64,000 nucleotides of DNA, taken from positions 3,472,001-3,536,000 of the forward strand of contig NZ_CP024202.1 in NCBI RefSeq assembly GCF_003932755.1, written 5' to 3'. The notes beneath the pieces were generated by a model that was given only the letters and a program-made list of their open reading frames with translations, ran no database searches and was not told the origin of the DNA. The first letter of the stretch is position 1; each line of letters opens with the position of its first letter. The stretch comes from Methylomicrobium sp. wino1 (lineage in GTDB: Bacteria; Pseudomonadota; Gammaproteobacteria; Methylococcales; Methylomonadaceae). Below, in pieces: positions 36,708-55,067 of this stretch. A program made the position numbers and the translations under genes.

Positions 36708-36792
36708 ATAATTAAATATATTCGTGCAATTCACTTTCAAAAAATCGCGCGATTTGTTTAAACACATTAAATTCGATCAAAAAAAATTTTAC

Positions 36793-38292
36793 ATGTCCGA
36801 AATCCAAATTCAAGACGAACAAGAACAAATCAGACAACGCCGCAGCAAATTGAACGAAATTCGCGAGCGCGGTATCGCTTTCCCGACCGACTTCAGACGT
36901 AATGTCGTGGTTGGCGAATTGCTGGCCGAATACGGCGAAAAAACCAAGGAAGAGCTCGAGACCGATCCGATCCGAGTCAAGGTTGCCGGGCGCATGATGA
37001 CTCGCCGCATCATGGGTAAGGCAAGTTTCTGTCATATCCAGGACATGTCCGGCAAAATGCAGCTTTATGTCGCGCGCGATCATCTGCCGGAAGGTTTCTA
37101 CAACGATCAGTTCAAGAAATGGGACATTGGCGATATCATAGGCACCGAGGGTGTATTGTTCAAAACCAATGTCGGCGAATTGAGCATCAAAGTTGACGAT
37201 ATTCGTTTATTGACCAAGGCGCTTAGGCCGTTGCCTGAAAAATTCCACGGTATCGCCGATCAAGAAATCAAATACCGCCAGCGTTATCTGGATTTGATCA
37301 TGAGCGAGCAATCGCGCAAGACTTTCCTGATCCGTTCGAAAATCGTTACATACATAAGAGAATTCTTGGTAGCGCGACAATTTCTCGAAGTCGAAACGCC
37401 AATGATGCAGGCGATTCCCGGTGGTGCAACCGCTCGCCCGTTCAAGACGCATCACAATGCCTTGGACATGGAGCTGTTTTTACGGATTGCGCCGGAATTG
37501 TATCTGAAACGACTGATTGTCGGCGGTTTCGAGCGGGTTTTCGAAATCAACCGCAATTTCCGCAACGAAGGACTGTCGACACGGCACAATCCGGAATTCA
37601 CGATGCTTGAATTCTATCAGGCCTATGCCGAGTATCACGACTTGATGGATTTGACCGAAGAAATGGTGCGAGGCATCGCACTCGAAGTACTCGGCCAAAC
37701 GCTAATTACTTACCAAGGCGAACAATACGACTTCGGCAAGCCGTTCGATCGCATGACCGTGGTCGAATCGATTCTGCATTTCAATCCGGATTTGGCGGTC
37801 GACGATTTGGCGACGCGCGAAGCGGCGGCGAAGGTGGCTGAAAATTTGAAAATCCCGGTCAAGGACGGCTACGGTCTCGGTAAGATTCAAATCGAAATCT
37901 TTGAAAAAACCGTGGAACATCGCTTGATGAATCCGACGTTTATTACCGCCTATCCGGTCGAAGTGTCACCATTGGCCAGACGCAACGATGACGATCCGCA
38001 TGTGACCGACCGCTTCGAATTTTTCGTCGGCGGGCGTGAAATTGCGAACGGTTTTACCGAGTTGAACGACGCCGAAGACCAGGCGGAACGTTTTCGTAAG
38101 CAGGTCGAGGAAAAAGAAGCCGGCGACGACGAAGCGATGCATTACGACGCCGACTATGTCACGGCATTGGAACACGGCATGCCGCCGACGGCAGGCGAGG
38201 GCATAGGCATCGATCGCCTGGTGATGTTGTTTACCGATGCTCCGTCGATACGAGATGTATTATTGTTCCCACATCTTCGGCCTAAGAATTAA
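36793..38292 (+). CDS. lysS: Lysyl-tRNA synthetase, class II
   Basis: A 499-residue LysRS: N-terminal OB anticodon-binding domain (about 60-170, [21 protein letters not shown]) and the class II core with motif 1 ([27 protein letters not shown]), motif 2 ([24 protein letters not shown]) and motif 3 ([18 protein letters not shown]). I prefer ATG 36793, where the family sequence [19 protein letters not shown] begins; the frame is open back to 36724 without a better start. No strong ribosome-binding site is visible. The stop is only 15 bases from the dispersed repeat that the transposon entered. Confidence 0.96.
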
Positions 38293-38306
38293 CCTATACC
38301 TATCGT

Positions 38307-38353
38307 AGGTCAAAATTCGGCACCGGGGTGCCCGTCAAAGGACGCCGTTAATA
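38307..38353. repeat. Left part of a dispersed repeat interrupted by the Tn3-family element
   Basis: GGTCAAAATTCGGCACCGGGGTGCCCGTCAAAGGACGCCGTTAATA-type sequence corresponds to the complement of the right end of the intact copy near fur (21150-21190). It ends in TAATA (38349-38353), the target duplication. The rest of the repeat continues at 60071. Confidence 0.88.
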
Positions 38354-38391
38354 GGGGTTCTAAGCCCAAACCCTCGGAATTTTTTGAATCA
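38354..38391 (+). repeat. Left terminal inverted repeat of the Tn3-family element
   Basis: Starts GGGGTTCTAAGCCCAAACCC; 23 bases are identical to the complement of the right end, then after one mismatch eight more (AATTTTTT). It lies 16 bases from the tnpA stop. Confidence 0.9.
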
Positions 38392-38406
38392 TTCTAAATC
38401 AATGTG

Positions 38407-41400
38407 TTAGTCAAATGTTATGCCAGCTAAAATATGATCAAAGTCGATTGGATTACGGTTATTTTTAAAGTCATAGTGACCCAGGAAGTGGATATGTTGC
38501 CAAGCCACAGGGGAAATTTTCTGGAGTAACGCAATCACTTTCTCGTTTCCGGCAGCTTTATACTTATCGAGCAGCTGCGATAATATGATCGAATTATAGG
38601 CAATTACCACATTGGCGATAAGCCTGCCACACTGATTGGTGATGCCGGCTTCCAAATCAGTTCTGCCGATTAGTTGCTTTTTGCCGCTGACTTGGGATGT
38701 AAATGAACGCAATTGGTGGTAGGATTCAATACGGTTTTGCGAACGGTGTACATCACGTTCTATCTGCGGATCACGCAAATACTTTAGGGTGTAAATGCTG
38801 CGCACCAATTTGTCGAACTCAAAAATTGCCTTCCGTGTTCGATTTTGTGCGGGTAATGCGCACAGTTTTCTAATCAATGTGCTTTGGGTCATTTCCTTAA
38901 GGCCCAGCGTGGCGATGATTTGATCGATGTGGGCTTGATCGGATTCAATCAGGGAGCGGTTAATCTGTCCGGCAGGCTTAATCAAAAACTTTTCGTAGTT
39001 TGCAATATCATCGGCACAATATAGGTGTTTCAGTTGATTTTGGAGACTAACGAATCGCGGCATCAGCTTCATGCCGAACCAATGTAAGATAGCGAAATTG
39101 GCCTTATTGATGCTGTGCATATCGCCAGTGATGGCCGTTGGCATGATATTTGAGGTATTGTTGTAGCAAATATCGAATAAAAAATTGCTTTCATGTTCAT
39201 GCGATCCGATCAATTCAGTTTGCAACGCGATATGATTGGCCAGCAGCGTATAGGCTGCAACACCTTTCCCCCGCCTAAAGTGCTTTTTAGAATGACGCGC
39301 TTTGAGGGTAGGTGTTCCCATTTCAAGATGTTGCCCATCAACACTCCCATAGAGTTGTTCCAGCCCGAATGAATAATAGGGAAAGATGCTTAACTCCGAA
39401 ATAAACTTGCTGATTCGATCATTGCTGGCCTTTAATGTTGATAGTCGTAAATATTGCTGATAGGTGACTTCCAGGACGTGATAGGGTATATCGCTTGTTT
39501 CGGACATACTCAGGTTGCCGTGATTCAGCGCCTGAGCAATAATAACGGCCATCAAACTATCTTCATCGGCGACTTTCTTGGCATAGCGCGGTTGTAACGG
39601 CGTTAACGCTGAGAGGAACTGACACTGCTCATTAACAAATCGGAAAATATCGGCAATATCATGCGATTGAAGTTTGGCATAGAAACCCAACTTTAAAGCC
39701 TCGTCTTTGTTGGCCTTGGGCTTATGCCAAGTCAAATGATTGCGAACCTCATCATACTCCAGATGCTTTAATTTACCTTGTCGCAACTCGCGGTCGAATA
39801 GTTTCCACTGTTGACTAAGTTCGGTATACAGCGCGTCAATTGACTCATCCAAAGGCTGACGCAACCAGGGGATGCCCAGCTTCTTCAGAACATCGGCTTT
39901 CTTTTCCATCGAAACCAGATCGTCACTAAATCGGCGATTCACAACGCTATCATTCAGATAAAGTTCATTAATGTCGAAGCGTTTTCTGATTTGGCGATAA
40001 ATCCAGAATTCGTATCGGTCGCCACGAATACCGATGGCTTTCCCTTCTTCATCCAATACCAACAGATGGGAGCGCAGGCGTTTAGGTATCGTGTTGGCAG
40101 GGATTTCACTAACAGGCCGCTGCGCCAAAGTTTGTTGACGGGAGAAAACGGTCTTCATCCAGCTCAGCGCCATTAGCCAGGGGTTCTGGGTATCGGTACT
40201 GGAAAAGTGGGTGGACATCGCCAGCGGACGCAAATTTTTCTTGCAACGGGCGGTGACTTTATCGACGGCCACCCAGCGAAAAGCCATTTGACTGGGCACT
40301 TTATCGCATAATCGTTGCCCCGCAGTGATTAGGGAATCCTTCGGCATGATGTTAAATGCCTGATCGCGTACTGTACCGAATAATGTAGAATCGTCTATCG
40401 CCTCATCAACATACAGTAAAATCAGACGGCCTACTTGTGGAGACTCTTGTTGTTTGCTGGATAAGGATTGATTAAACTGCTGCTTTGAATCGCTCTTGGT
40501 TTCTTCTTCCAGTTTTTTAAGCTGGTAACAAAAACTGCTAACCAGGTTATCGCTCAGTTGCTGGTAACGTTGCCAAGCGTAGCACAACAGATACAAATAG
40601 GTTTGCCCAGGCTTCAGTCGCCTTAAGTCATAGATGCTGTAAAAATTGGCGAGACTGGCGTAGTAATTTTTATTTTGCTGCGAAATTTCGAGTTTTGGCA
40701 GGAGTGTCTTCGCTATCTGGTACAAAGGCTCCAGCGTTGCCCGCTTCTGGCGTTCTACCACCATCATTTGGTAGCTGAAGTTCTTGGTATCTTGCTTGAT
40801 GGCCGCCAATCCAGACAAGGTATCTTCGCGAACGAGTAGTTTTTTAAGCTCAGTCCGTGCGGATTCATCTACGATTTCATCAATCAATTGCTCCAAACGG
40901 TTGCGTTCGGAAGTCAAGGCATCACCAATGATCGTTTGTAGGGTTGTATACCCTGGGCGCACAATTTTCTGATTGTTTAAGAAGACAATCAATTCGGTCA
41001 GGATAAATGTCGGTGTGACATCTTGTCTCGCCAGTTCAGTAGCTTTATCCAATAGCGTTGCCACATCGCTTTCTAACCAAAGCCGATAGCCAAATAATTC
41101 CGCGATTACGTTGCGTTGCAAATAATATTCAGTCATTTGCAAGGGCTGCAATGCCACATTCATACCAGGGAAATACCGCTGCATTATGAAGGTGATGTCT
41201 TCTTCTGGCACATCTTGAAGCGAAAACCGGAAAAAGGTTTGTTTCGCCTTAAAGTAACCCATCTGTAACAAGCAATAGAGCTGTGAGCGAAGGCCATTCC
41301 GTTGGAACACGATGCCATGTTCTTTCTCCGTCATCGCGAAAAACTCGGTACGTTGAAAATCATCGAAATCAGGTAAATCGTATAGCGCCTGTTTTTCTGC

Positions 41401-41442
41401 TTCTGACAAAACCGTTAACCGTTTATTGTTATTGGCACGCAT
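38407..41442 (-). CDS. tnpA: Tn3 family transposase TnpA
   Basis: A 1011-residue Tn3-type transposase. The N-terminal DUF4158 region (LSEAEKQALYDLPDFDDFQRTEFF, ELFGYRLW) is followed by the DDE_Tnp_Tn3 domain, where SVDGQHLEMGTPTLKARHSKKHF holds the first catalytic acid, TAITGDMHSINKANFAILHWFG the second, and the YHQLRSFTSQVSGKKQLIGRTDLEAGITNQCGRLIANVVIAYNS block near the C-terminus the third. Length and architecture are complete, so transposition by the replicative cointegrate route should be possible. It is transcribed toward the left repeat and is divergent from the DUF433 gene and resolvase. Confidence 0.96.
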   Translation of the reverse strand: MRANNNKRLTVLSEAEKQALYDLPDFDDFQRTEFFAMTEKEHGIVFQRNGLRSQLYCLLQMGYFKAKQTFFRFSLQDVPEEDITFIMQRYFPGMNVALQPLQMTEYYLQRNVIAELFGYRLWLESDVATLLDKATELARQDVTPTFILTELIVFLNNQKIVRPGYTTLQTIIGDALTSERNRLEQLIDEIVDESARTELKKLLVREDTLSGLAAIKQDTKNFSYQMMVVERQKRATLEPLYQIAKTLLPKLEISQQNKNYYASLANFYSIYDLRRLKPGQTYLYLLCYAWQRYQQLSDNLVSSFCYQLKKLEEETKSDSKQQFNQSLSSKQQESPQVGRLILLYVDEAIDDSTLFGTVRDQAFNIMPKDSLITAGQRLCDKVPSQMAFRWVAVDKVTARCKKNLRPLAMSTHFSSTDTQNPWLMALSWMKTVFSRQQTLAQRPVSEIPANTIPKRLRSHLLVLDEEGKAIGIRGDRYEFWIYRQIRKRFDINELYLNDSVVNRRFSDDLVSMEKKADVLKKLGIPWLRQPLDESIDALYTELSQQWKLFDRELRQGKLKHLEYDEVRNHLTWHKPKANKDEALKLGFYAKLQSHDIADIFRFVNEQCQFLSALTPLQPRYAKKVADEDSLMAVIIAQALNHGNLSMSETSDIPYHVLEVTYQQYLRLSTLKASNDRISKFISELSIFPYYSFGLEQLYGSVDGQHLEMGTPTLKARHSKKHFRRGKGVAAYTLLANHIALQTELIGSHEHESNFLFDICYNNTSNIMPTAITGDMHSINKANFAILHWFGMKLMPRFVSLQNQLKHLYCADDIANYEKFLIKPAGQINRSLIESDQAHIDQIIATLGLKEMTQSTLIRKLCALPAQNRTRKAIFEFDKLVRSIYTLKYLRDPQIERDVHRSQNRIESYHQLRSFTSQVSGKKQLIGRTDLEAGITNQCGRLIANVVIAYNSIILSQLLDKYKAAGNEKVIALLQKISPVAWQHIHFLGHYDFKNNRNPIDFDHILAGITFD

Positions 41443-42225: not shown

Positions 42226-42783
42226 ATGCTTATTGGCTATGCACGTGTCTCAACACAAGATCAAAACCTTGAACTTCAAATCGATGCCTTGACTAAGGCC
42301 GGTTGCAAGAAAATATTCGATGACAAAATCAGCGGTAGCCGCGCTGAACGCCCCGGCTTGACCAAGGCATTGGAAATGTTGCGCGAAGACGATACGCTGG
42401 TTGTCTGGAAGCTGGACAGGCTGGGTCGCAGTGTCAAGAATCTGGTTAATCTGGTTGGCGAGTTGCATAAGCAAGGCGTCCAGTTCAAAAGTCTCACCGA
42501 TGCGATCGACACGGGCACCACATCCGGCCGATTTTTTTTCCACGTAATGGCGAGCTTGGCCGAAATGGAAAGGGAACTGACCGTTGAACGAACTCGTGCC
42601 GGCCTTGAAGTCGCACGGCAACTTGGCCGAAAAGGAGGCCGTAAGCGGCAGATGACCGACAGTAAGATTGAGTCAGCCAAGAAACTGCTGGCCAACGGCG
42701 TACCGCCCCGGGATGTGGCAAAGAACCTTGGGGTTTCGGTGCCGACCCTATATCGATGGATTCCAGCATCCGCGAATCCATAA
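42226..42783 (+). CDS. tnpR: Serine recombinase (Tn3-type resolvase)
   Basis: A 185-residue resolvase: catalytic serine in YARVSTQDQNLELQIDAL (Ser9-Ser10 region), GCKKIFDDKISGSRAERPGL, LVVWKLDRLGRSVKNLVNLV, and a C-terminal helix-turn-helix with NGVPPRDVAKNLGVSVPTLYRWIPA. It would resolve cointegrates made by TnpA at a res site, probably in the 41443-41616 gap. It forms one transcription unit with the TA pair. Complete, with normal length. Confidence 0.95.
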   Translation: MLIGYARVSTQDQNLELQIDALTKAGCKKIFDDKISGSRAERPGLTKALEMLREDDTLVVWKLDRLGRSVKNLVNLVGELHKQGVQFKSLTDAIDTGTTSGRFFFHVMASLAEMERELTVERTRAGLEVARQLGRKGGRKRQMTDSKIESAKKLLANGVPPRDVAKNLGVSVPTLYRWIPASANP

Positions 42784-43189: not shown

Positions 43190-44482
43190 TTATAACCAGT
43201 TACCAAAAGGTTGCACGAAAACCGTTTCACCAGCTTCCACTCGGGTTTGATCAGTTGCTAAGATTATGAAGCAATTGGCTTGAGACATGGAAAGTAAAAT
43301 TCCAGAACCTTGCTCACCGGTCTTGCATACTGTCAACCCGCCATCAAACGCCTGACTCAAAATGCCGCGCTGATACTCTACTCTTCCCGCTCGTTTTGTT
43401 AAAAGCAAACTGTTCATCGCTTGTAAAATTAAAGGAGGACGAACGATTTCCCCACTTAAATGCTGTAGTGCCGGATGCACAAACTGGTTAAAACTTACCA
43501 TCATCGCTACTGGGTTACCCGGCAAACCAAAAAACAATGATTGTTCTAGACGACCAAAAGTTAATGGTCGTCCTGGCTTCATTGCCACCTTCCAAAAAAC
43601 AATTTCGCCTAATTCTTTCAACACTTGACGTATATAATCGGCCTCTCCGACCGAAACTCCGCCGCTACTAATAATGACATCATGGTTTTTCGCAGCTACT
43701 TGCAATATATTGTGTAGTTGTATATGGTCGTCACCAACCACGCCTAAATCAGTTATAATGCAATGCAAGCGGCTCAACATCCCAAACAAAACATTTCGAT
43801 TAGTATCGTATATCTGTCCAAGCTGTAAGGCTTCTCCTATTGGCTGCAATTCATCACCTGTGGAAAAAAAGGCTATCCGCAAGCGCGGCATTACAGCAAC
43901 ATTATTGATGCCTAAGGAAGACAACACCCCTAAATCTGCCGCCGTTAGCCTTCGACCACATGTCAATACTGTTTGTCCTAATCGTATATCCTCTCCAGAG
44001 AATCGAATATTATCTTCTAGTCTAGTACGACCATCAATTCTAATATCTGCTGCGCCGAGCATATCGACATGCTCCTGCGGGATCACCGTATTGCAACCGG
44101 CAGGAATTACTGCTCCTGTCATTATGCGGACACACTCGCCACTTGTGCATCTCCCAAAAAATGGATGACCGGCAAAACTATTCCCAACTACCTTTAATGT
44201 TGCAGTCCCATTCCGAGGTATATCATCGGCACACAAGGCAAACCCATCCATCGCCGAATTGTCATAAGGAGGAACATTCATTTCAGCAATAATATCTTCA
44301 GCCAACACACGATCAATGGATTGTCGCAAAGACAACCGTTCTTGCTTCGTAATAGCGAAGGGTTTTATGCAATCTATTATAAATTGCTGCGCAACATCAA
44401 CAGTTATTGCTGTCGGATCATGCTCGTCAGCGCAACTTGGTTTGCTTAGATGAAGTCTTCCGCTATCTATCTTATTAGGCAT
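43190..44482 (-). CDS. moeA: Molybdopterin molybdenumtransferase MoeA
   Basis: A complete 430-residue MoeA: MNVPPYDNSAMDGFAL (the MoeA signature), VRIMTGAVIPAGCNTVIPQEH, DIRLGQTVLTCGRRLTAADLGVLSSLGI, FFSTGDEL, YDTNRNVLFGMLSRL, IISSGGVSVGEADYI, FWKVAMKPGRPLTFG and FFGLPGNPVAMMVSF. It inserts molybdate into adenylated molybdopterin. A 25-residue polar extension precedes the usual start. It is separated from the moa operon by about 740 bases and its sequence style is more gammaproteobacterial than theirs, so it may have joined the island independently. It probably replaces the broken moeA at 45222-45556. Confidence 0.94.
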   Translation of the reverse strand: MPNKIDSGRLHLSKPSCADEHDPTAITVDVAQQFIIDCIKPFAITKQERLSLRQSIDRVLAEDIIAEMNVPPYDNSAMDGFALCADDIPRNGTATLKVVGNSFAGHPFFGRCTSGECVRIMTGAVIPAGCNTVIPQEHVDMLGAADIRIDGRTRLEDNIRFSGEDIRLGQTVLTCGRRLTAADLGVLSSLGINNVAVMPRLRIAFFSTGDELQPIGEALQLGQIYDTNRNVLFGMLSRLHCIITDLGVVGDDHIQLHNILQVAAKNHDVIISSGGVSVGEADYIRQVLKELGEIVFWKVAMKPGRPLTFGRLEQSLFFGLPGNPVAMMVSFNQFVHPALQHLSGEIVRPPLILQAMNSLLLTKRAGRVEYQRGILSQAFDGGLTVCKTGEQGSGILLSMSQANCFIILATDQTRVEAGETVFVQPFGNWL

Positions 44483-45221: not shown

Positions 45222-45556
45222 CTAAGTTTTATATTTCTTAGGCACAACCGAATCCAGCTCTTCAGGAACAATCGCACCATTGCTGATTCGGTAAGCAGAA
45301 TGGGGCACTATTTTTTCTCCAACCGGAAAACCTGCGCTGCTTTCTCTGGCAAAAGGTAGCACGACGGTTTTTCGACATCCTCCCAGGAGACAGCAAAGCC
45401 ATCCAAAGCACTGTTTTTATAACGGGGTGAAGAGATTATTGCTAGCGTCCTTTCGGCAAGAACATTGTCAAGGGATTCAGATGTTGAAATAACGCCTGCT
45501 TTTCTATCAGGTATATTTTCCTTCATTATTTCAATAGCTTGATTTATGGATATCAC
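45222..45556 (-). pseudogene. moeA: Remnant of a second moeA, frameshifted and truncated
   Basis: From ATG 45556 the frame gives MISINQAIEIMKENIPDR and SSPRYKNSALDGFAVSWEDVEK, a MoeA N-terminus. It then goes out of frame near 45370; in another frame the family sequence resumes with SSAGFPVGEKIVPHSAYRIS and NGAIVPEELDSVVPKKYKT before a stop at 45222. The remaining two thirds are absent. The ATG overlaps the stop of the moaC-mogA gene (ATGA-type, 45553-45556), so it was the last gene of the moa operon. The intact moeA 700 bases further on presumably covers the function. Confidence 0.85.
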
Positions 45557-46485
45557 TTTTTTACCCAGCGTTTTTCTTCATCATGTCCGCCACCCCACAG
45601 CATAGGGAAAGCATGCAAAAGTCCAGGGAAAAGTGCTTCCAAACTTTCCTGCGCACCTTTGGAACTTCCTGGTAAATTAATGATTAATGTTTTGTCGCAT
45701 ATGCCAGCCAGTTCGCGTGACAACATTGCATAAGGTGTGCGTTCTTTACCATGGCGGCGTATAGTCTCAGCCAGACCGGGTGCTTCTTTTTCGATGACTT
45801 TGGCCGTTGCTTCCGGAGTTATGTCTCTAGGGCCAAAACCCGTTCCACCGGTTGTAATAACCAGATCAAAATGTTCATCTACTAGTTGCCGCAAGCGATT
45901 TGATATTTGGTCTGAATCATCGGGTAAAATTTCATAGACCGTAACCGATAGGTCTTTATCTTCCAAAAATATTTTGATGATTTTTCCGGATGTATCTTCG
46001 CGGTTTCCGGCATATGTTGAATCAGAAATAACAAGAACAGCCGATTTTAATGGTTCGGCAAAATATTCTTTAAAACTGCTTTTGCCTCCCTTTTTCTTAA
46101 CCAGTTTTACATCGGAAAAAGAGATGTTTTCATCTAACGGTTTAAGCATATCATAGACGTTTAACAGCGCGCCCGTAACTGCAGCCATAGCTTCCATTTC
46201 AACACCGGTTTTCCAGATTGCTTTTACTTCCGCAGAAATTTTTATAGTGTCTTTGCCGATATCAAAACTTATACCCACCCAATCCAAAGGAAGAGTATGA
46301 CTAAAGACGATCCAGGCAGAAGCATTTTTCGCAGCGGTTATGCCTGCTGCCCGTGCAATCTGTAAAACATCTCCTTTGGGAACAGTTTTTTCAGCCACCC
46401 GTTTTATTGTTTCCGAATTAGCCGTTAAAATTCCTTCGGCTTTCGCATATCTTAATGTGCTGAATTTTTGACTAATATCGATCAT
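45553..46485 (-). CDS. Bifunctional MoaC-MogA (MoaCB) molybdenum cofactor protein
   Basis: The 310-residue fusion has MoaC first (1 to about 145: AEGILTANSETIKRV, GDVLQIARAAGITAAKNAS, VKAIWKTGVEMEAMAAVTGALLNVYDMLK), which makes cyclic pyranopterin monophosphate together with MoaA. MogA/MoaB follows (about 147-310: AVLVISDSTYAGNREDTSG, VITTGGTGFGPRDITPEATAKVI, NLPGSSKGAQESLEALFPGLLHAF), which adenylates molybdopterin. One difference from classical MoaC is IVFSHTLPLDWVGISF in place of the usual IPLCHPL. Such MoaC-MoaB fusions are known, chiefly in Bacteroidota and relatives. AT-rich Lys/Glu-rich composition supports a foreign source. Confidence 0.92.
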   Translation of the reverse strand: MIDISQKFSTLRYAKAEGILTANSETIKRVAEKTVPKGDVLQIARAAGITAAKNASAWIVFSHTLPLDWVGISFDIGKDTIKISAEVKAIWKTGVEMEAMAAVTGALLNVYDMLKPLDENISFSDVKLVKKKGGKSSFKEYFAEPLKSAVLVISDSTYAGNREDTSGKIIKIFLEDKDLSVTVYEILPDDSDQISNRLRQLVDEHFDLVITTGGTGFGPRDITPEATAKVIEKEAPGLAETIRRHGKERTPYAMLSRELAGICDKTLIINLPGSSKGAQESLEALFPGLLHAFPMLWGGGHDEEKRWVKK

Positions 46486-46594: not shown

Positions 46595-48160
46595 CTATTG
46601 CTGAACCCAGTGCACAGATTTATCTTCCATGATTTCTTTTTTCCAGATGGGAACTTTGTGTTTAATACCTTCAACAATCTGTTCCATCGCTTTAATACTT
46701 TCTTTACGATGCCCGGAGGAGCAAAAAACAAAAAGAGATAGTTCTCCGGTTTTTACCAATCCGGTACTATGGTATATGTGCAGGCAATTTAACGGCCATT
46801 GTTCAAAAGCTTCTTCACGAATTTTTGAAAACGCTTGGTTGGCCATGTCTTCATAAGCCGAGTATTCAATTCCGGCCACATGTTTGCCCACTTTTTCATC
46901 AGCACGTACTTGCCCGAGAAAAATAGAATGGGCGCCTATGTCATGTTTAAAGCTATGTTTTGCTATCTGCTCACCGATAAAAACCGGATCGATAGCTCCC
47001 TGGATAAAATAATTTTTGGCGTTCATGGTTCTATTTTTTTCCTCTTTCAACCAGGCTACCAAACCGCCTGTAAGATTGAATACATTTTTAAGTGTTTGAT
47101 GATTTGGCAGCATTCTAATTGCCCGGATGCTGTTGATTCCGTGGTCACAATAAAAAACAACCTGGCAATCGTTTTTCAATATGTTATGAATATTAGCCTG
47201 CAAATTATTTAGCGGGATGCGAATAGCATTCGGCAATTCCTCTTGGAATTCGGGTATCGAACGAACATCAATCAATTGTATTTTTTCGTTGTTTTGTAAT
47301 TTTTTGTGCAGATCAACAGCGCTGATTTCATTTATTTTTTGCTGACTTGAACTGCAAAAACTTTCATAATCAAATGACTCAAAATCCGGGGCATTTTGCA
47401 AAGCCTGCTGCACAGCCTGTTCGTTTCGTTGAATGGAAAACAGCATTGTTTGATTGCTCAATGCATCGAACATCAAAACTTTTCCTGATAAAACTTCGCC
47501 TACTCCGCAGATCATTTTTATAACTTCGTTTGCCTGCAAATTACCGATAATTCCCGGAAGAACGCCAATGACACCATTTTGCGAACAATCTGGTGCTGTT
47601 TCGGGTGCCGGGGGGTTGGGAAACAGGCAGCGATAAGTTGGGCATTTATTGCCTTGATTATCTGTAAAATTTAATACACTCAACTGTCCCTGAAAGCGGT
47701 CTATTGATCCTGAAACAAAAGGTTTATCCAGGTAAACACAAAAATCGTTAATCAAATAACGGGTTGGAAAGTTGTCTGTAGCATCAACAACGACATCATA
47801 TTGGGAAATCAAATCGACAGCATTTTCCGGAGACAATCTTTGAGTGTATGCCTTTAAAACAATATTGGGATTGAGATCCTTTAAACGATTTACTGCGGCT
47901 TCGGCTTTGAATTCTCCAACCTGTGAAAAGCCATACAACACCTGGCGATGCAAATTAGAAACCGCAACTTTATCGGGATCTACAATACCAACCCTGCCGA
48001 CACCGGCTCCAGATAGATACATTAAAGTAGGGCAGCCCAATCCGCCTGCACCGATGACCAGTACTTTTGCTTTTTTTAAAGCCTGTTGTCCTGTTTTGCC
48101 AATCTGAGGTAAAATCAAGTGGCGGTGATAATACTGAATTTCCTCTTTATTTAGGTTCAT
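46595..48160 (-). CDS. MoeB-rhodanese-MoaE three-domain fusion
   Basis: Residues 1 to about 245 are MoeB/ThiF-like: RHLILPQIGKTGQQALKKAKVLVIGAGGLGCP, DATDNFPTRYLINDFC and CPTYRCLFPNPPAPETAPDCSQNGVIGVLPG. Residues 275-375 are a rhodanese domain with active cysteine in VVFYCDHGINSIRAI. From residue 379 (MNAKNYF) to the end is MoaE, the large subunit of molybdopterin synthase (GQVRADEKVGKHVAGIEYSAYEDMA, HRKESIKAMEQIVEGIKHKVPIWKKE). It thus activates MoaD, supplies sulfur, and carries out dithiolene formation. I chose ATG 48160, 17 bases after moaD. The join lies at an A7 run directly before TAGAACCATG; one more A would give two separate proteins. Confidence 0.9.
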   Translation of the reverse strand: MNLNKEEIQYYHRHLILPQIGKTGQQALKKAKVLVIGAGGLGCPTLMYLSGAGVGRVGIVDPDKVAVSNLHRQVLYGFSQVGEFKAEAAVNRLKDLNPNIVLKAYTQRLSPENAVDLISQYDVVVDATDNFPTRYLINDFCVYLDKPFVSGSIDRFQGQLSVLNFTDNQGNKCPTYRCLFPNPPAPETAPDCSQNGVIGVLPGIIGNLQANEVIKMICGVGEVLSGKVLMFDALSNQTMLFSIQRNEQAVQQALQNAPDFESFDYESFCSSSQQKINEISAVDLHKKLQNNEKIQLIDVRSIPEFQEELPNAIRIPLNNLQANIHNILKNDCQVVFYCDHGINSIRAIRMLPNHQTLKNVFNLTGGLVAWLKEEKNRTMNAKNYFIQGAIDPVFIGEQIAKHSFKHDIGAHSIFLGQVRADEKVGKHVAGIEYSAYEDMANQAFSKIREEAFEQWPLNCLHIYHSTGLVKTGELSLFVFCSSGHRKESIKAMEQIVEGIKHKVPIWKKEIMEDKSVHWVQQ

Positions 48161-48176: not shown

Positions 48177-48410
48177 TCAGCCCCCAGCAAAGGGGGGCAT
48201 AACTGCGACCGAATCGTTATCAAAAAGAAGGTAATTGTCTTCAACCATTTGCTGATTTACAGCCATTCTATACGTATAGTCTTTTAAATTCGGATAATTT
48301 GTGATTAACTTGCTTTTCAAGTCAGTCATATTGCCTGTGTCTTGAATCGTCAACATGTTTTTCCCCACCACATCACTCAGAACACCAAAAAAAATCACAT
48401 TAACCTGCAT
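48177..48410 (-). CDS. moaD: Molybdopterin synthase small subunit MoaD
   Basis: A 77-residue ubiquitin-like protein: MQVNVIFFGVLSDVVGKN, a beta-grasp pattern, and the C-terminal VAVMPPFAGG, whose terminal Gly-Gly is adenylated by MoeB and thiocarboxylated. Its large-subunit partner MoaE is fused to the next gene, 16 bases downstream. Confidence 0.93.
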   Translation of the reverse strand: MQVNVIFFGVLSDVVGKNMLTIQDTGNMTDLKSKLITNYPNLKDYTYRMAVNQQMVEDNYLLFDNDSVAVMPPFAGG

Positions 48411-48454: not shown

Positions 48455-48631
48455 TTAAATAAAATTTATAGCTTTTACTCTTATATCAATCCGGCTACCA
48501 GTGCGATCGTCAGGTGTGGCAAAAGAAATGAAACCAACAGCAAGCGCAACTGCCAGCGGTAATAGTGTTCTCAAGTCACCAATGGAGCCAGACCATTCCG
48601 AAAATAAAAATCTATTTTTAAGTTTTTCCAT
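48455..48631 (-). pseudogene. N-terminal remnant of a MOT1-type sulfate/molybdate transporter
   Basis: A 58-codon frame starts at ATG 48631, overlapping the moaA stop (TGATG). Its first 36 residues, including NRFLFSEWSGSIGDLRTLLP and LAVALAVGFIS, match the beginning of MOT1-like molybdate/sulfate permeases (E-x-SGslGDLgTllPlav). The frame then runs into unrelated sequence and stops at 48455; the remaining ten or so helices are missing. Position between moaA and moaD suggests the original operon carried its own molybdate importer, since deleted. The short match makes this probable, not certain. Confidence 0.7.
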
Positions 48632-49665
48632 CATCCACCTATCTGTGCCATTGAAAGATGATTTTTTGAAAAATGAATTATTTGCTGCGTACGCTGTTCC
48701 GATTCAAATCCGTCTTTTGCCCTTTTGGACACGGCATCTCTAATTGCCGTTTTTATTTCCTGATCACTTTTTCCTGAGCGCAGCATGTCTTTTAAATTTA
48801 CGTCGCCATGATCATAGAGACAGGTTTTGAATGTGCCGTCGGGAGTGAGCCTTAAACGGCTGCATGTTGAACAGAATGTTCTGGAATGACCGGCGATGAT
48901 GCCGACTTTTCCCCTAAATCCAGGGATTTCAAAAATCCGGGCAGTTGAACACATTTTAAGATGTTCGATCATTTCAGGAAAAGAATTCTGCAAAGTTTTG
49001 ATAATTTCTTCTGCAGAAAGTGTATCGTTTGAAAAGTGCCCGCCGTTAAAAGGCATTTGTTCAATAAAGCGGACTTCAACTTTATTACTTTTGGCCAACA
49101 TAGCAAAGTCAACAATTTCATTGTCATTGACGCCTTTGAGAACCACCATGTTCAATTTAACGTTCAGATCCGTTAGCAGAATTTTATCAATGCTATTCCA
49201 CACCCGTTCAAAATCATCACGTCGGGTAATTTTATAAAAAACGTCTCGCTTTAACGAATCAAGACTGATGTTAATACTGCCTGATTTTATTTTTTGAAAC
49301 AATGGAATAGTATCTTCTAAAAAATAGGCATTCGTTGTTAAATTGATTGTTTCCAGTTTTTCATATTGATTTATTCTGATTAAAAAATCAGGCAGGCCTT
49401 TACGCACAAAAGGCTCACCACCGGTAATGCGCACTTTGGTTACACCTAAATCCAAAAATAGTCCAAGCAGGTGTTCCATTTCCTGAAAACGCAGAATATC
49501 ATCACGTGCTTTAAGATCAATTCCCTCCTTTGGCATACAATAAGTACAACGGAAATTGCAACGGTCGGTAACAGCAAGCCGCAGATAATTTAAATGACGC
49601 CCCTGGGAATCAATCAGAAGGGAAGCTGTTGAATTTTTTTGGTGTGTAGTATGTAAATAATCCAC
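48631..49665 (-). CDS. moaA: GTP 3',8-cyclase MoaA
   Basis: A 344-residue radical SAM enzyme catalysing the first step of Moco synthesis from GTP. The N-terminal cluster motif is CNFRCTYCMPKEG, followed by VTKVRITGGEPFVRKG. The second cluster is in FCSTCSRLRLTPDGTFKTCLYDHGDVNL, and the protein ends MAQIGG with the conserved Gly-Gly. I chose GTG 49665 because an AAAAGGAGT site lies nine bases upstream; an ATG further out would need 27 extra residues without a binding site. It heads the operon moaA, permease remnant, moaD, moeB-moaE fusion, moaC-mogA, moeA remnant. Confidence 0.94.
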   Translation of the reverse strand: MDYLHTTHQKNSTASLLIDSQGRHLNYLRLAVTDRCNFRCTYCMPKEGIDLKARDDILRFQEMEHLLGLFLDLGVTKVRITGGEPFVRKGLPDFLIRINQYEKLETINLTTNAYFLEDTIPLFQKIKSGSINISLDSLKRDVFYKITRRDDFERVWNSIDKILLTDLNVKLNMVVLKGVNDNEIVDFAMLAKSNKVEVRFIEQMPFNGGHFSNDTLSAEEIIKTLQNSFPEMIEHLKMCSTARIFEIPGFRGKVGIIAGHSRTFCSTCSRLRLTPDGTFKTCLYDHGDVNLKDMLRSGKSDQEIKTAIRDAVSKRAKDGFESEQRTQQIIHFSKNHLSMAQIGG

Positions 49666-49851
49666 GCTTATTTTACTCCTTTTCAAGTTCGAGAAGCTTT
49701 GCTGTTTCTTGCAAAACCCTATCGAGGCCATGAACCCAACAATCATATTTAAATCGTCTGCAAGCTCGAAGTTAATTTAAATAGTGCGCTAAGATATACA
49801 AAACGTTTTTACTGATTTTTTATTTAATAAGGACAAAAAAATCATTAGCAT

Positions 49852-50215: not shown

Positions 50216-52444
50216 TTAAGCCGAATAACTTGTTCCTTCGGTTCCATCCTCCACTTTATAGACCTTGCAAGCCAACCCTCTGAGTTGGAAGTTGCCTTGT
50301 TCCTTATCACAGTATTCGTCAGAGTCATGAAGTATGACCGCATCCGCCGATTTCCAGAGACTCGATAACGCCGCACCAGGTTCTTCACTTCCTGTTGTTT
50401 CCGGGTACCACCAGCCATGAGGAACCCTGACTACGTTAGGATGTGTGTCATTACTGAGCCACGACCTGAGTTTGATTCTTTTTCCGCTAGTTGATTCCAC
50501 CCATGCCCAATCCCCATCCGACAGGTCTATATCGTAGGCCGTATCCGGATGGATTTGCATGCGGGGATCCGGCTCGCGGCTACGCAGCTCTTTAGTGGAT
50601 CGGCCTAGGCCAAAACTGTGAAACCAATAGTTTTCGCGCATGCCGGTGAAAAAAGTCAACGGATGCGTCTTAGCCAACTCCGGTTTCCTCACATGGCTTT
50701 CCGGTGGTTCAACCCAACTAGGCAAGGGATCATAGCCTAGCTCTTCGAAAATGCTTGAATAGAGTTCAACTTTTCCGCTAGGTGTGCCAAAGCCGGTTTG
50801 TTCGTATTTCTTGAAAGTTATTTCAGGCGCGGAAGCCCGAACCTGGGTTGATAATTTTTCCCATGTTAATCCCGCAGGCTTTAACCGTTCATCGTACGCC
50901 TCTTCCATGCTTGCCGGCCAATCCTTCTCTTGTCCCAGACGAACGCCAAGCTCACGCCATAGCATCCAGTCGTGCATACATTCTCCTGGCGCCTCCACTG
51001 CTTGCTCTCCCCCTTGATAGATTGGAATCCAATCCCAGTAATTGAACAGGTTCGGTCTTTCCAGCCAATGTGTGGCCGGCAGAATATAATCGGCGAGTTG
51101 GGCCGTGGGCGACTTGATAAGATCCATAACCACTAACAAATCCAGGTTCATCAACCCTTCGTAAATGTGAGTGGTGTTGGGGTAACTGTTTAAGGTGTTG
51201 TTACATTGCGATATAAGTGCCCTCAAGCGGTAAGGCTTGCCTGTTTTCATCGCTTCCCACATGCTTGCAGGGTGCGCCATCGCGCCGCCGGATACCTGGT
51301 TTGAATATTTTTTGCCCCAAACCTTTTCCATTGCTGGGCCGGTCTTTTCGAGTGTTTCCCAGCTCAAGAGCTTAAAGCGGTCAACACCGAGTTGTTTCTT
51401 GCGTTGTTCAGGCGATAGCCTCTCATTGAGTTCGAATTCATCATCCGATGAAATTTCCGGATGGTACCCCATTAACAGTTCGCCCCCGGGTACATCGAGA
51501 TTACCGGTGATGGATCTCAATATGGTTAAGGCTCGTAAAGTCTGGGTGCTATTGGCATGGTGATCCGGTACTGCTCCCCAGGGGATCACAGCGGGACCAG
51601 TAGTGGCATACATTCTGGCAGACTCGCGAATCTTATCTGCTGGCGCTCCAGTAATTTCTGACGCCCACTCCGGAGTGTATTCCTTCACTCTTTCAGCGAG
51701 TTGTTCAAAACCAACCGTCCATTTTTCTACAAATTCTTTGTCATAGAGGTCTTCTTCGATGATCACATTAATCCAGGCCAGTAAATAGGCACTGTCCGTA
51801 GCAGGCTTAACCTGCAGAAAGATGTCCGCTTGATCACTATAGCTATTACGGCGTGGATCTGTGACGATCAGCTTTGCGCCCCTATCCAGGGCACCCTTAA
51901 TCCACAGGTACTCAGCCGTCCATCTTTGCGGACCCGGAGCGTGGCCTAAAAGTACGATGCATTTGGTATTATGAAAGTCTGGAAACTGCCAAAAGCCGTA
52001 AGTCGCTTTACTGGGCACCGTGGAATTGGCTAAACACACGTATCCCGTCCAAGTCCAGTTCGGACTCCCCAGTAAGTTCATAAATCTTCGTGAGGCCGCA
52101 CCGGCGTTAGAGCTCCAGCCATAAGTGCTGCCAATTGTTTCCGGGCCGTCTTCGGCTATCAACTGCTTCATCTTATCGGCAATCTCATCTAAAGCTTGCT
52201 TCATGCTAATTTGTTCCCACTGACCCGAGCCGCGCTCACCGATTCTTTTCAGCGCATGCGTTAATCGGTCTGGATGGGTAATGTACTTATTTGCGTTGGC
52301 CCCCTTGACACAGATCGAATTCGGCGTGAGGGCATGATCCGGATTTTTTTTGATCGATTTCACCTTACCGTCTTCAACGGTGACAAGAAGTCCGCAATTG
52401 ATATCGCAGGTACTACAGATGGCCCATTTCGTTTCTTTGCTCAT
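50216..52444 (-). CDS. Acetylene hydratase-like molybdo/tungstopterin enzyme (DMSO reductase superfamily)
   Basis: A 742-residue enzyme without Tat or Sec signal, so cytoplasmic. The N-terminal [4Fe-4S] motif is C10-x2-C13-x3-C17...C45, and D14 directly follows the second cysteine (CSTCDINC). That is the position of the catalytic Asp13 of Pelobacter acetylene hydratase. A probable metal-ligand cysteine is C137 (GYVCLAN; AHy Cys141). Residues matching the AHy hydrophobic ring and pocket are I15, W175, W289 and W470, with D294 for Asp298. The isoleucine at AHy 113 is not kept. TPTAQLADYILPATHWLERP and FGTPSGKVELYSSIFEELGYDPLP are also close to what I recall of AHy. That enzyme hydrates acetylene to acetaldehyde; the present substrate is unproved. 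Confidence 0.85.
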   Translation of the reverse strand: MSKETKWAICSTCDINCGLLVTVEDGKVKSIKKNPDHALTPNSICVKGANANKYITHPDRLTHALKRIGERGSGQWEQISMKQALDEIADKMKQLIAEDGPETIGSTYGWSSNAGAASRRFMNLLGSPNWTWTGYVCLANSTVPSKATYGFWQFPDFHNTKCIVLLGHAPGPQRWTAEYLWIKGALDRGAKLIVTDPRRNSYSDQADIFLQVKPATDSAYLLAWINVIIEEDLYDKEFVEKWTVGFEQLAERVKEYTPEWASEITGAPADKIRESARMYATTGPAVIPWGAVPDHHANSTQTLRALTILRSITGNLDVPGGELLMGYHPEISSDDEFELNERLSPEQRKKQLGVDRFKLLSWETLEKTGPAMEKVWGKKYSNQVSGGAMAHPASMWEAMKTGKPYRLRALISQCNNTLNSYPNTTHIYEGLMNLDLLVVMDLIKSPTAQLADYILPATHWLERPNLFNYWDWIPIYQGGEQAVEAPGECMHDWMLWRELGVRLGQEKDWPASMEEAYDERLKPAGLTWEKLSTQVRASAPEITFKKYEQTGFGTPSGKVELYSSIFEELGYDPLPSWVEPPESHVRKPELAKTHPLTFFTGMRENYWFHSFGLGRSTKELRSREPDPRMQIHPDTAYDIDLSDGDWAWVESTSGKRIKLRSWLSNDTHPNVVRVPHGWWYPETTGSEEPGAALSSLWKSADAVILHDSDEYCDKEQGNFQLRGLACKVYKVEDGTEGTSYSA

Positions 52445-52710
52445 TTTTAGCCTCTATAAATCATTTTTATTAAAAATCATCTTCAACCAGACTTAGTTAA
52501 TGCCGCTATTTCGCAGTGGCGATCTAACGCATGTATCAACATATAACCAGACATGCTGGCTTATTAGATACTGTTTGCCTATAGTTATATAGGAATAAAC
52601 TATGCATATGAATACGATCCATCGTTAATCACAACGGTAGAAAACTTAATATCCTTTTTAATATTGGATATAGCCTATCTTTTACAGAAATATTATACGG
52701 GGAATGTCAG

Positions 52711-52764
52711 CTTGTAAAATACTGATTAACTATGATTCAATAGGCAAAAGCTATTTATTAGATG
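52711..52764 (+). promoter_or_regulatory. Copy of the LysR-promoter sequence upstream of the acetylene hydratase-like gene
   Basis: CTTGTAAAATACT, CTATGA, AATAGG and GCTAT occur here with the same spacing as at 55504-55556 between the EthD gene and lysR, while the bases between differ. Conserved blocks with free spacers indicate protein binding. It lies 267 bases upstream of the molybdopterin enzyme start. The 372-base gap 52445-52816 also has a palindrome CCTATAGTTATATAGG (52578-52593) and no gene. Confidence 0.6.
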
Positions 52765-52816: not shown

Positions 52817-53071
52817 TTAGAAAAAGACATCAGCAACCCTTTTAATACACCACTCTTTCGCTGAGATTGGCTTAGGTGTCCGCTTGGATTGCTTGATCAG
52901 TATTTTGGAATCACGAAAGTGACTAAGTGCGTGAAAATAGAGCTCGCGCTTTCTGTCATACTCCGCATAAAAACTTCCTTTTGATGCCCATAACAGTAAT
53001 TGATCCTTCGTTGGAGCGCTTTTTAACCTTGCCCTGTTTGTGTAATTGACGACAACACACGTTACCATCAC
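52817..53071 (-). pseudogene. Remnant of a TetR-family regulator
   Basis: The frame contains SKGSFYAEYDRKRELYFHAL and SHFRDSKILIKQSKRTPKPISA, which align closely with the DNA-binding domain and first linker of the intact TetR at 57858-58445 (GKGSFYAAFGSKRELYLQAL, SHFRDTKMLIKQPKR). The helices before it are scrambled and the ligand-binding domain is missing. It stands beside the intact hydrolase and CMD genes, just as the intact tetR stands beside their paralogues, so it is the decayed regulator of this copy of the module. The next 315 bases (53072-53386) contain no gene, only an ATGCAAACGATTTTGCAT hairpin near 53306. Confidence 0.85.
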
Positions 53072-53386
53072 GCCAATACAAGTTAAGACGTTTTAAAATC
53101 CAACAAGGTGAAATTATCCATTCCTTCCTGCCTATTTACCCGAATTGAATCCAGATGGTAGGTTTGGAACCCTGCTAAAAAAGTAGAGGTGGGCAAGTAC
53201 TCCATACAAAGATGAATCGGTTTAGAGCACTAAATCTTCGGTCATCCAGGCTATCCAACAAAAAGTCGTGCTGGTGAAAGCATTTTCAAATTACCAGATG
53301 ACCTTTATGCAAACGATTTTGCATAAAAATTATGCAATACTTTTTGGAAAGATTAATACGCCAATAATTAAGATAGAAAATACTTT

Positions 53387-54502
53387 TTACTCAATCCTTT
53401 TAACTGCCTTAAAGAAACTGATGATTTCCCTATTCCGTCCAGGCCATTCTGGGTGTGGACCGTTGCCTTCGCAATACCAAGTCTGTACGCCGTTCTTGCA
53501 GCCACTGTAAGCCATACAGCCTTCAACGCCTGGAACGGGGGTGGTAAAAGGTAAAGGTTGTCCCGGTTTGAGGTCTAGGGCTTTTTGTTCAAGTTCTTGT
53601 TTATAATAATTTTCCCAGCCCCAGGCTTTGCCGGATTCTGGTACTTTGCGGTCAGTGGCCTTGTAGGTTTTGGTCGTGCATTTATTGCATTTTGCCCACC
53701 ATTCAATGGCTTCTTTGCCGTAGTTGGGGAACAGTTTGTCGCGGCTGCTGTGCATCAGCATCACTGGCGTAGGTTTTACGCAGTTTCGGTCTTCCAAATC
53801 TTCGCCCCGCATACCGACTGCGCTGGGTGCAATAGCGGCTGGAATGTGTTTGGTGCCGTTGAAAAAGGCGGTTCCCATAGCCACTGTGCCACCATCGGAA
53901 TGTCCGGTCAGGAAAATACGTTTTTTATCAACGCACCATTTTTCTTGAATCATCTTGGGAATTTCAGCTAGTTGAACGGCAGATTCTGGCGATAATGGAC
54001 GGTGGTCGGCATACGCAATAACAAATCCCGCTGCGGTTGCCTCGCTGGTTAAGTAGACGTGTTCTTCGGCTTCTTCACGATCCCGTCCTGCTGGTGCATA
54101 AACCATCAACAAGGGATGGGCGATGGTGTCCTTATAGTTTGAAGGTGTCCTGACTGAAAAATGGATGCCGTCACCGGTTTTTTCATCGTCAGTGGAACCG
54201 GTTTCACCCGGTTTTGCTCCAGGTTGGCAACCCGCTGCTGATATATCATTAGTATAAGTCGCTTCACTTATGATGACACCCGCTTTTGATGCTTCGGTGA
54301 TATTGGCATCCGCCCTGTAGTACGTTTTGCTGGCACCGGTAAAACCCGCCATAAAAAGGCCAATTGCCATTACAAATGTCATCAGGAGATCGGGCTGTTT
54401 GCCACGATAGCGCAGCCATTCCGGCTTGAACAGGCCAATAAACAAGATTGCAATAGAGCCAATAATTAAGAACCTAAAAAAATACAGCAGTAACGTGCTC
54501 AT
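53387..54502 (-). CDS. Membrane-anchored alpha/beta hydrolase, PHB depolymerase/LpqC-like
   Basis: A 371-residue protein with two N-terminal membrane helices (about 5-24 and 40-57) and a large exported domain. The nucleophile elbow is G200-H-S-D-G-G205, preceded by KRIFLTG and followed by AIAPSAVGMRGEDL. A late GNGPHPEWPG carries the probable catalytic histidine. Many cysteines (GCQPG, DRNCVKP, KCNKCTTK, GCMAYSGCKNG, WYCEG) suggest disulphides in the periplasm. It resembles LpqC/feruloyl-esterase or PHB-depolymerase-like enzymes; the substrate is unknown. A truncated paralogue is at 57249-57770. It follows the CMD gene in the operon EthD, CMD, hydrolase. Confidence 0.85.
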   Translation of the reverse strand: MSTLLLYFFRFLIIGSIAILFIGLFKPEWLRYRGKQPDLLMTFVMAIGLFMAGFTGASKTYYRADANITEASKAGVIISEATYTNDISAAGCQPGAKPGETGSTDDEKTGDGIHFSVRTPSNYKDTIAHPLLMVYAPAGRDREEAEEHVYLTSEATAAGFVIAYADHRPLSPESAVQLAEIPKMIQEKWCVDKKRIFLTGHSDGGTVAMGTAFFNGTKHIPAAIAPSAVGMRGEDLEDRNCVKPTPVMLMHSSRDKLFPNYGKEAIEWWAKCNKCTTKTYKATDRKVPESGKAWGWENYYKQELEQKALDLKPGQPLPFTTPVPGVEGCMAYSGCKNGVQTWYCEGNGPHPEWPGRNREIISFFKAVKRIE

Positions 54503-54539: not shown

Positions 54540-55067
54540 TCAAGAATGATACACGGCTGTCGTTTTGATGGCAGGCTGCGTTTGTTTACCGTTAACCGCT
54601 TTCTTGCCGATGCCTACCCCCATCGTAAAGCGGTTCATGCAATTCACGACTGCGCACAAACGTACCGTGTCTAGCAAGGCCCGTTCGTCCCAGCCAACTT
54701 CATAGATGAGGTTGACATCAGCTTGTGTTATTTGGTCAGGTGTCAAGGTAAGCTTCTTTACAAAGCGCAAGAGTGGCTTTATCTTTTCATCAACTTTTGC
54801 GCTGTCAATGTCCAATATTAATTGACCGTAGACGGATTCATCGATGCCCAATTCCTTAAGCAGCGACTTGTGTGCTGTATAACAGGATTCTGATTGGTTG
54901 AGATCGGAGGTATAAGTGATAATCAGTTCACGTGTCCCTTTGCCCAAAGGTGAAAAACACCCTTTAATGTCCTCCAATAATTTAAACAACAGGATGCCAC
55001 GGCGCGGGTATTTTGCCAGTAATCCGGCGATATTTTCCAAGTCAGGACTTGACGGTAAGTAAGACAT
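54540..55067 (-). CDS. Carboxymuconolactone decarboxylase family (AhpD-like) protein, CxxC lost
   Basis: A 175-residue AhpD/CMD-family protein. The active region reads LNQSESCYTAHKSLLKELGI: the second cysteine and the CYxAH motif are there, but the first cysteine of the usual CxxC is serine. The paralogue at 58611-59174 has an intact CGFC in the same place (LNACGFCYHSH). Peroxidase-type activity, which needs both, is therefore doubtful for this copy. Other shared features are KYPRRGILLFKLLEDI near the N-terminus and GWDERALLDTVRLCAVVNCMNRF. It is located between EthD and hydrolase genes on the same strand. Confidence 0.88.
   Translation of the reverse strand: MSYLPSSPDLENIAGLLAKYPRRGILLFKLLEDIKGCFSPLGKGTRELIITYTSDLNQSESCYTAHKSLLKELGIDESVYGQLILDIDSAKVDEKIKPLLRFVKKLTLTPDQITQADVNLIYEVGWDERALLDTVRLCAVVNCMNRFTMGVGIGKKAVNGKQTQPAIKTTAVYHS

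Follow-up and report, generated by a model that had tools for sequence, protein, structure and literature searches.

Does an aerobic methanotroph carry a true acetylene hydratase (AH), and if so, how does the gene travel and what would its bearer gain from it? The question is raised by an open reading frame (ORF) in a 64,000-nucleotide stretch of Methylomicrobium sp. wino1 (assembly GCF_003932755.1, contig NZ_CP024202.1, positions 3,472,001 to 3,536,000), referred to here as the window and numbered from its first letter. A first-pass annotation had described this ORF as an AH-like enzyme in a probably aerobic host:

50216-52444, minus strand: acetylene hydratase-type enzyme, 742 aa, intact ORF from ATG to TAA

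Judged by descent and catalytic residues, the protein is very probably a true AH. The best overall explanation of the locus, and in our view a probable one, is a mobile acetylene-hydration cassette in a methanotroph.

The resemblance to AH was borne out. A sequence search of the PDB returned the Pelobacter acetylenicus AH (2e7z) as top match (E 2.4e-180, 605 bits, residues 6-730), compared to 252 bits for the second-best match, a thiosulfate reductase; identity between the window protein and 2e7z was 44% (MAFFT pair). The structure of the window protein was predicted from a 35-row alignment without 2e7z and without templates (predicted local distance difference test, pLDDT, 88.3; predicted template modelling score, pTM, 0.91). 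It matched 2e7z with template modelling (TM) scores of 0.93/0.95 and a root-mean-square deviation of 2.1, compared to 0.83/0.83 and 5.1 for the next structure. The NCBIfam scan matched 26 families; among the 25 shown there was no AH model and none was above its cut-off. No twin-arginine translocation signal was seen by eye at the N-terminus, and no partner subunit gene adjoined the ORF among the window neighbours scanned.

In 2e7z numbering, the window protein keeps C9, C12, D13, I14, C16, C46, K48, C141, W179, W293, D298, W472 and R606. The numbering offset, and the numbers of residues other than Asp13, Cys141, Trp179, Trp472 and the cluster cysteines, are our assumption, with residue types fitted in the alignment. 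The catalytic Asp, ligand Cys, pocket Asp and three Trp claimed at first pass all aligned (D13, C141, D298, W179, W293 and W472), and the Asp/Cys equivalence holds against the characterised enzyme. Ile113, Met140 and Ile142, which we take to form the hydrophobic pocket of 2e7z, are not matched. As the first-pass annotation had recognised, I113 has no conserved equivalent (Ser in one alignment, a gap in another), and the other two positions read M140V and I142L. The plasmid-encoded R. opacus relative departs here as well (gap, Leu, Leu), and we do not treat this pocket set as a defining trait of AH. The 327-393 stretch, presumably the substrate-funnel region, measured 67-68 residues in 13 AH-clade rows; it was rejected as a diagnostic because it also reaches at least 66 residues in 17 of 78 non-AH rows. 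PMC12096430 names Asp13, Cys141, Trp179, Trp472 and the cluster cysteines of AH, and describes Asp13 as specific to the AH subfamily, its change to Ala abolishing activity.

The diagnostic value of these residues was assessed in 98 aligned rows: the window protein, 2e7z, 80 named-genome loci, two plasmid proteins, a formate dehydrogenase of the same genome and 13 rows from further genomes. The named-genome loci were the best 80 of 445 relatives, found with peptide seeds from pair A1 (one seed containing the Asp13 motif). The Pelobacter row is the PDB chain, the Pelobacter genome being absent among the matches. From four plasmid matches, R. opacus and Rhizobium proteins were aligned and two Caballeronia records left out. 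Asp13 was present in 18 of the 98 rows and Trp179 in the identical 18, all with Trp293 and Asp298 as well. Neither occurred in the remaining 80 rows (among them L093, a fragment that lacks the residue-13 region), which puts the pattern beyond chance. His13 and Glu298 are found together in 59 of these 80, and the Rhizobium plasmid protein has Tyr13 and lacks Trp179. W293, W472 and D298 were also found in some rows outside the D13/W179 set. Cluster cysteines 9, 12, 16 and 46 together with Cys141 were kept in 92 of 98 rows and are thus not diagnostic. A 39% relative in genome G077 (L015) was rejected as a second methanotroph hydratase (His13, Glu298, no Trp179).

The 18 signature rows are 11 methanotroph-type proteins (several near-identical), 2e7z, the R. 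opacus protein and five proteins of four other proteobacterial genomes. Trp472 is kept in the methanotroph proteins, 2e7z and R. opacus; the five other proteobacterial members have Phe (three), Tyr (one) or a gap (L148), and L148 also has Gly at 14 and Pro at 606. Locus L152 (genome G840) holds two AH-clade genes approximately 10 kb apart, the first of which is L148, the most departing in its signature.

The placement of the protein was then read from trees containing AH-like MopB rows, a part of the characterised MopB families. In a careful tree of 44 of the 98 rows, built without the signature columns, the window protein fell inside the AH clade with support 100/100. This clade had 12 of the 44 rows: five methanotroph proteins, 2e7z, R. 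opacus and the five other proteobacterial proteins. In a quick tree (91 rows, 29 dropped, 62 used) the AH clade comprised eight rows, with a Shimodaira-Hasegawa-like approximate likelihood ratio of 100. Within the clade the methanotroph branch splits off first, and R. opacus is placed weakly (84/52). An exclusive clade of methanotroph proteins and 2e7z, a grouping chosen after the quick tree had been viewed, was rejected by the approximately unbiased test (p-AU 0.0006). Placement thus makes the window protein an AH clade member, yet not the closest relative that the Pelobacter enzyme has in the tree. The first-pass reading as AH stands on clade membership and on the Asp/Cys equivalence; it needs amending in that the protein is not sister to the Pelobacter enzyme alone and that the pocket differs at three positions.

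The hydratase gene lies inside a transposon of 21,717 bp, in which 23-bp terminal repeats and a direct TAATA repeat bracket a transposase, a resolvase and cargo:

38349-38353, no strand: left target-site duplication copy TAATA, 5 bp, read directly; direct repeat of 60071-60075
38354-38376, plus strand: left terminal inverted repeat GGGGTTCTAAGCCCAAACCCTCG, from a repeat search; one match per orientation in the genome at no more than 2 mismatches
38407-41442, minus strand: Tn3-family transposase, 1011 aa (PF01526 DDE_Tnp_Tn3, E 1.4e-97)
42226-42783, plus strand: serine resolvase (PF00239, E 2.9e-47)
60048-60070, minus strand: right terminal inverted repeat, from a repeat search and genome match
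60071-60075, no strand: right target-site duplication copy TAATA, read directly

Tn3 transposase, resolvase, terminal inverted repeats and 5-bp target duplication are all present, as in the Tn3 family. The 23-bp repeat occurs once per orientation, 21.7 kb apart, both in this genome and in same-genus G078, and the two sections compared with G078 (37700-38500 and 40871-61500) are 99.8-100% identical, which looks like the result of a single insertion common to both. A single transposon common to all carriers of the gene was rejected, since, among the genomes searched, the gene has the repeat on both sides in G000 and G078 only. That search (no more than 2 mismatches) covered nine of the 12 carriers described below, with G588, G590 and G595 left out, and four same-genus non-carriers. 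The repeats lay elsewhere than around the gene in G135 and G055, and were not found in five carriers and the four non-carriers. The surroundings of the cassette are different in the other carriers and include transposase-like ORFs, as assessed by eye, indicating that the hydratase and cofactor genes are a recurring unit for which the Tn3 element is one vehicle.

The search for a clean empty site found none: at this position G060 carries a different 123-bp insert, and G010 and G037 also differ, G037 having similar uninterrupted sequence elsewhere in its genome. The G060 insert (L133, approximately 1316-1438) has CCCAGCACCTAAATT inverted ends and lies at the transposon site downstream of lysS, in the same genus. 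The exact 23-bp repeat had no match in the viral collection and the cofactor-hydratase stretch no near match in the plasmid collection; the transposase-resolvase stretch gave partial matches only.

Downstream of the hydratase gene lie moaA, moaD, moeB-rhodanese-moaE, moaCB and moeA, and further cargo lies upstream of it:

43190-44482, minus strand: moeA (NCBIfam NF007960 above cut-off)
45553-46485, minus strand: moaC-moaB fusion (NCBIfam NF002947 above cut-off)
46595-48160, minus strand: moeB-rhodanese-moaE fusion (PF00899, PF00581 and PF02391 on 46598-48151); likely ATG at 48160, listed ORF to 48244
48177-48410, minus strand: moaD, 77 aa (PF02597 ThiS, E 8.7e-11)
48631-49746, minus strand: moaA (TIGR02666 above cut-off)
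53387-54502, minus strand: alpha/beta hydrolase-like protein, hydrophobic N-terminus by eye (PF02230, E 0.00023, and NF050058, both below cut-off)
54540-55067, minus strand: peroxidase-related, carboxymuconolactone decarboxylase (CMD)-like protein (TIGR01926, E 5.6e-19, below cut-off; no Pfam family)
55117-55443, minus strand: EthD-family protein (TIGR02118 above cut-off)

The genome holds two moaA copies above the family cut-off, one in the cassette and one elsewhere; the cassette showed no mobA-type gene. The hydratase-cofactor stretch has 93-99% DNA identity with Methylobacter sp. KS41, a Methylomicrobium metagenome-assembled genome, G055 and a Thermoplasmata-labelled contig, and 78-93%, partly in pieces, with the remaining carriers. 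The cassette on that contig (L026, labelled as a Thermoplasmata archaeon) is 98-99% identical to the window at the DNA level, and the contig is probably a mis-binned piece of a methanotroph genome. G+C content is 39-44% in the cofactor genes and 50% in the hydratase gene, and the cassette looks as though it was assembled from two sources. Around other clade members, no cofactor gene was seen among the neighbours scanned (19 in L113 and L152 together, and a single one in L153), a part of the four neighbourhoods at hand. Two similar 35-aa hydrophobic peptides (MNDVKKLLLVL.. and MTDLKKLLLAL..) are encoded in the transposon cargo at 56720-56827 and 59421-59528. Inverted stretches at 52854-53923 and 57240-58102 are 75-80% alike and comprise the complete alpha/beta hydrolase gene, a truncated copy of it and a short TetR gene piece.

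The host genome is a single 5.06-Mb contig with full-length PmoA, which supports the aerobic host proposed at first pass and makes it the methanotroph on which the proposed role depended. The hydratase gene was detected at 92-100% identity in 12 of the 237 genomes from this family, representing 5 of its 29 genera; in G028 it is split by an insertion. Among the named carriers are Methylomonas lenta R-45370, M. methanica NCIMB 11130, Methylobacter sp. KS41 and the Methylomicrobium metagenome-assembled genome. PmoA was present in all 12 family carriers and absent from four other hosts of clade members (12 of 16 in all). Matches were found in 5 of 369 genomes drawn from the class (E 1e-110) and 4 of 398 drawn from the phylum (E 1e-140), own genome counted in both. 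Besides the own genome, G238, G343, G840 and G627 were AH-type, and G214, G413 and G632 were not.

The gene is mobile and under purifying selection. LysS identity was 85-89% in eight other-genus carriers (G590 and G595 left out), compared to 92-100% for the hydratase. In M. lenta, synonymous divergence (dS) was 0.008 in the hydratase gene and 2.5 in lysS, the LysS values being indicative only, as they are near saturation and one was not computable; other hydratase dS values were 0.32-0.84. The ratio of nonsynonymous to synonymous divergence (dN/dS) was 0.023-0.116 in seven comparisons of the hydratase, and 0.147-0.681 in six comparisons of the cassette moaA, where the top value came at a dS of only 0.03. 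The LysS ORF of the window (36724-38292) starts with GTG. Its relatives have open frames of approximately 502 aa, and the G010 and G032 matches contain stops, which suggests that the true LysS start is further in.

Upstream of the hydratase gene and in the remaining cargo we found a repeated dyad and two regulator genes:

52579-52592, no strand: CTAT-N6-ATAG dyad ahead of the hydratase gene; further copy at 52730-52743
55523-55536, no strand: CTAT-N6-ATAG dyad in the divergent EthD-LysR intergenic region; further copy at 56444-56457
55568-56440, plus strand: LysR-family regulator (PF03466, PF00126)
57807-58445, plus strand: TetR-family regulator (PF00440), 44% identical to the TetR beside a monooxygenase operon in L156

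The dyad occurs six times in the window (0.5 expected; six reached in none of 100 shuffles), four of these at 52579, 52730, 55523 and 56444. All 12 neighbourhoods compared (the window and 11 loci, without L023, L026 and the duplicates L028-L031; several are near-identical) have a copy approximately 135-152 bp ahead of the start of the hydratase gene, and the window, L020 and L027 also have one 45-80 bp ahead of the EthD-family gene. Gene order was inspected in nine of 15 neighbourhood loci, and the LysR gene was directly divergent from the hydratase gene in L019, L020, L154 and L155. From these patterns we infer one LysR regulon that would contain the hydratase and EthD genes.

Three carriers, G116, G590 and G595, belong to genus g11, which includes the M. 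lenta and M. methanica records. They have an extra copper membrane monooxygenase (CuMMO) operon of order A-B-C, 11-12 kb from the hydratase gene and 3.5-4.6 kb beyond moeA (families assigned in G590):

L156, 5438-8245; L157, 409-3216; L158, 5176-7983: extra CuMMO operons with a TetR gene; AmoC fragment in L156

Of 237 family genomes, four have the PmoA of this operon at an identity of at least 96%, and three of these four also carry the hydratase (next best match 71%). The hypergeometric p for this co-occurrence, calculated by hand, is approximately 4e-4, uncorrected for relatedness within one genus, where it may reflect one event. In G595 the extra-operon pmoA has an in-frame stop. The adjoining operon fits a link with monooxygenase protection and does not prove it.

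As we envisage it, the protein would be a cytoplasmic enzyme with tungsten or molybdenum on bis-molybdopterin guanine dinucleotide and one [4Fe-4S] cluster. Water would be activated by Asp14 (Asp13 of 2e7z) at the metal, with Cys137 (Cys141) as its ligand, and the Trp-lined pocket would be where acetylene is hydrated to acetaldehyde with no net redox change. The hydratase gene travels with pterin-cofactor genes, here as cargo of the 21.7-kb Tn3-family transposon, and the LysR regulator, acting on the CTAT-N6-ATAG dyads, probably turns the gene on. Acetylene inhibits methane oxidation (PMC7858054), and the likeliest use in a methanotroph would be to remove acetylene before it inactivates methane monooxygenase. 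By analogy with the epoxyethane systems of methanotrophs (PMC11507031), the chances that protection of methane oxidation is the main role are about even. The computations show clade membership, catalytic residues, linkage, mobility and purifying selection; substrate, metal, regulation and role are deduced from them. The wider idea that methanotrophs exchange an acetylene-resistance element, in which the hydratase, cofactor-pathway genes and an inducible promoter defeat a widely used methane-oxidation inhibitor, is tentative and falls somewhat short of that.

Several observations weigh against an AH at work in this host. The hydrophobic pocket of 2e7z is not kept and the methanotroph branch joins the clade deeply, while the variation at residue 472 in the five proteobacterial members suggests that the substrate may vary within the clade. 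The sequence does not tell tungsten from molybdenum at the active site. The gene is rare and one copy is split, the cassette moaA is under weaker constraint than the hydratase, and acetylene hydration does not account for the EthD, hydrolase and CMD-like cargo. No aldehyde dehydrogenase gene was present among the 15 transposon ORFs scanned, the rest of the genome not being searched. Moreover, the Pelobacter enzyme is described as requiring a fully reduced centre (PMC12096430), which is awkward in an aerobe.

The pocket changes and the deep branching would suit an enzyme of the same fold and chemistry with another natural substrate, a different small triple-bonded or unsaturated compound, as would the dyad before the EthD-family gene, which suggests a regulon beyond acetylene. 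We consider this unlikely, given that D13, W179, W293, D298 and W472 are kept at 44% overall identity and are common to the R. opacus protein, and that PMC4653830 describes the Pelobacter enzyme as acetylene-specific. The same enzyme might serve growth on acetylene (acetylenotrophy) and not protection, for which we also see little likelihood. Methanotrophs with PmoA usually do not grow on C2 compounds, and every family carrier has PmoA; the lack of an aldehyde dehydrogenase among the scanned transposon ORFs points the same way. In favour of growth, the gene immediately upstream of L148 (G840) encodes an aldehyde dehydrogenase, and both aerobic and anaerobic bacteria are reported to grow on acetylene (PMC7858054).

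That the protein is a catechol dehydroxylase or another redox MopB enzyme of the wider AH-like group is barely credible: the non-AH rows, including the one Gordonibacter row, L102, a presumed dehydroxylase, fall outside the AH clade without D13 and W179, and no electron-transfer subunit was seen among the scanned hydratase neighbours in the window. Such an enzyme would account for the ferredoxin gene near the R. opacus relative and for the Fe-S protein genes that PMC7858054 reports in the vicinity of other acetylene hydratases. A mere transposon passenger, without current function in its host, would explain the patchy occurrence and the split copy in G028, yet the low dN/dS of the hydratase and the dyad kept in every neighbourhood make this a slim chance.

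If methanotrophs do exchange such an acetylene-resistance element, acetylene-block assays would misreport methane oxidation where carriers are common, and a methane monooxygenase inhibitor would appear to have selected a mobile counter-measure. A second type of AH in culturable aerobic methanotrophs would supply an aerobic comparison enzyme and shed light on how such a centre stays active in an aerobe. The named carriers M. lenta R-45370 and M. methanica NCIMB 11130 make the reading testable. In the open-licence literature we found no paper on a methanotroph AH; a survey paper may exist beyond it.

Among known systems, the Pelobacter enzyme is described as the only well-characterised AH (PMC7858054, PMC6013536). 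The window protein has in common with it the fold, the cluster cysteines, the Cys ligand, the D13, K48, W179, W293, D298 and W472 residues and the length of the 327-393 stretch. It differs in the three pocket positions, in its methanotroph host and in the linkage of its gene to cofactor genes on a transposon. The R. opacus DSM 44186 plasmid protein, named a molybdopterin-dependent oxidoreductase (WP_120661552.1), is 45% identical and has the same D/W/W/D/W set. Its plasmid is typed as mobilizable, and downstream of the gene come moeZ, at 3.3 kb, and a cofactor guanylyltransferase gene, at 13 kb; the relative differs by Lys for R606 and by ferritin-like and ferredoxin genes beside the gene. We assume that this strain degrades acetylene, although the literature search found no paper confirming it. 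An R. opacus AH is described as molybdenum-dependent and aerobic (PMC7858054). The catechol dehydroxylases of Gordonibacter and Eggerthella are reported as the nearest relatives of AH in the MopB superfamily (PMC7028382); L102 was taken as one from its host alone.

With Tn3-family transposons that carry accessory cargo, the window element has in common the transposase, the resolvase, terminal inverted repeats starting GGGG and the 5-bp duplication, and it differs in that the cargo is a hydratase with cofactor-pathway genes. The EtnE/coenzyme M cluster, proposed to detoxify epoxyethane and reported in approximately 10% of methanotroph genomes (PMC11507031), is likewise a patchy set of accessory genes proposed against C2-hydrocarbon toxicity. 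Its enzymes are different, and it acts after the monooxygenase, while the hydratase would act before it.
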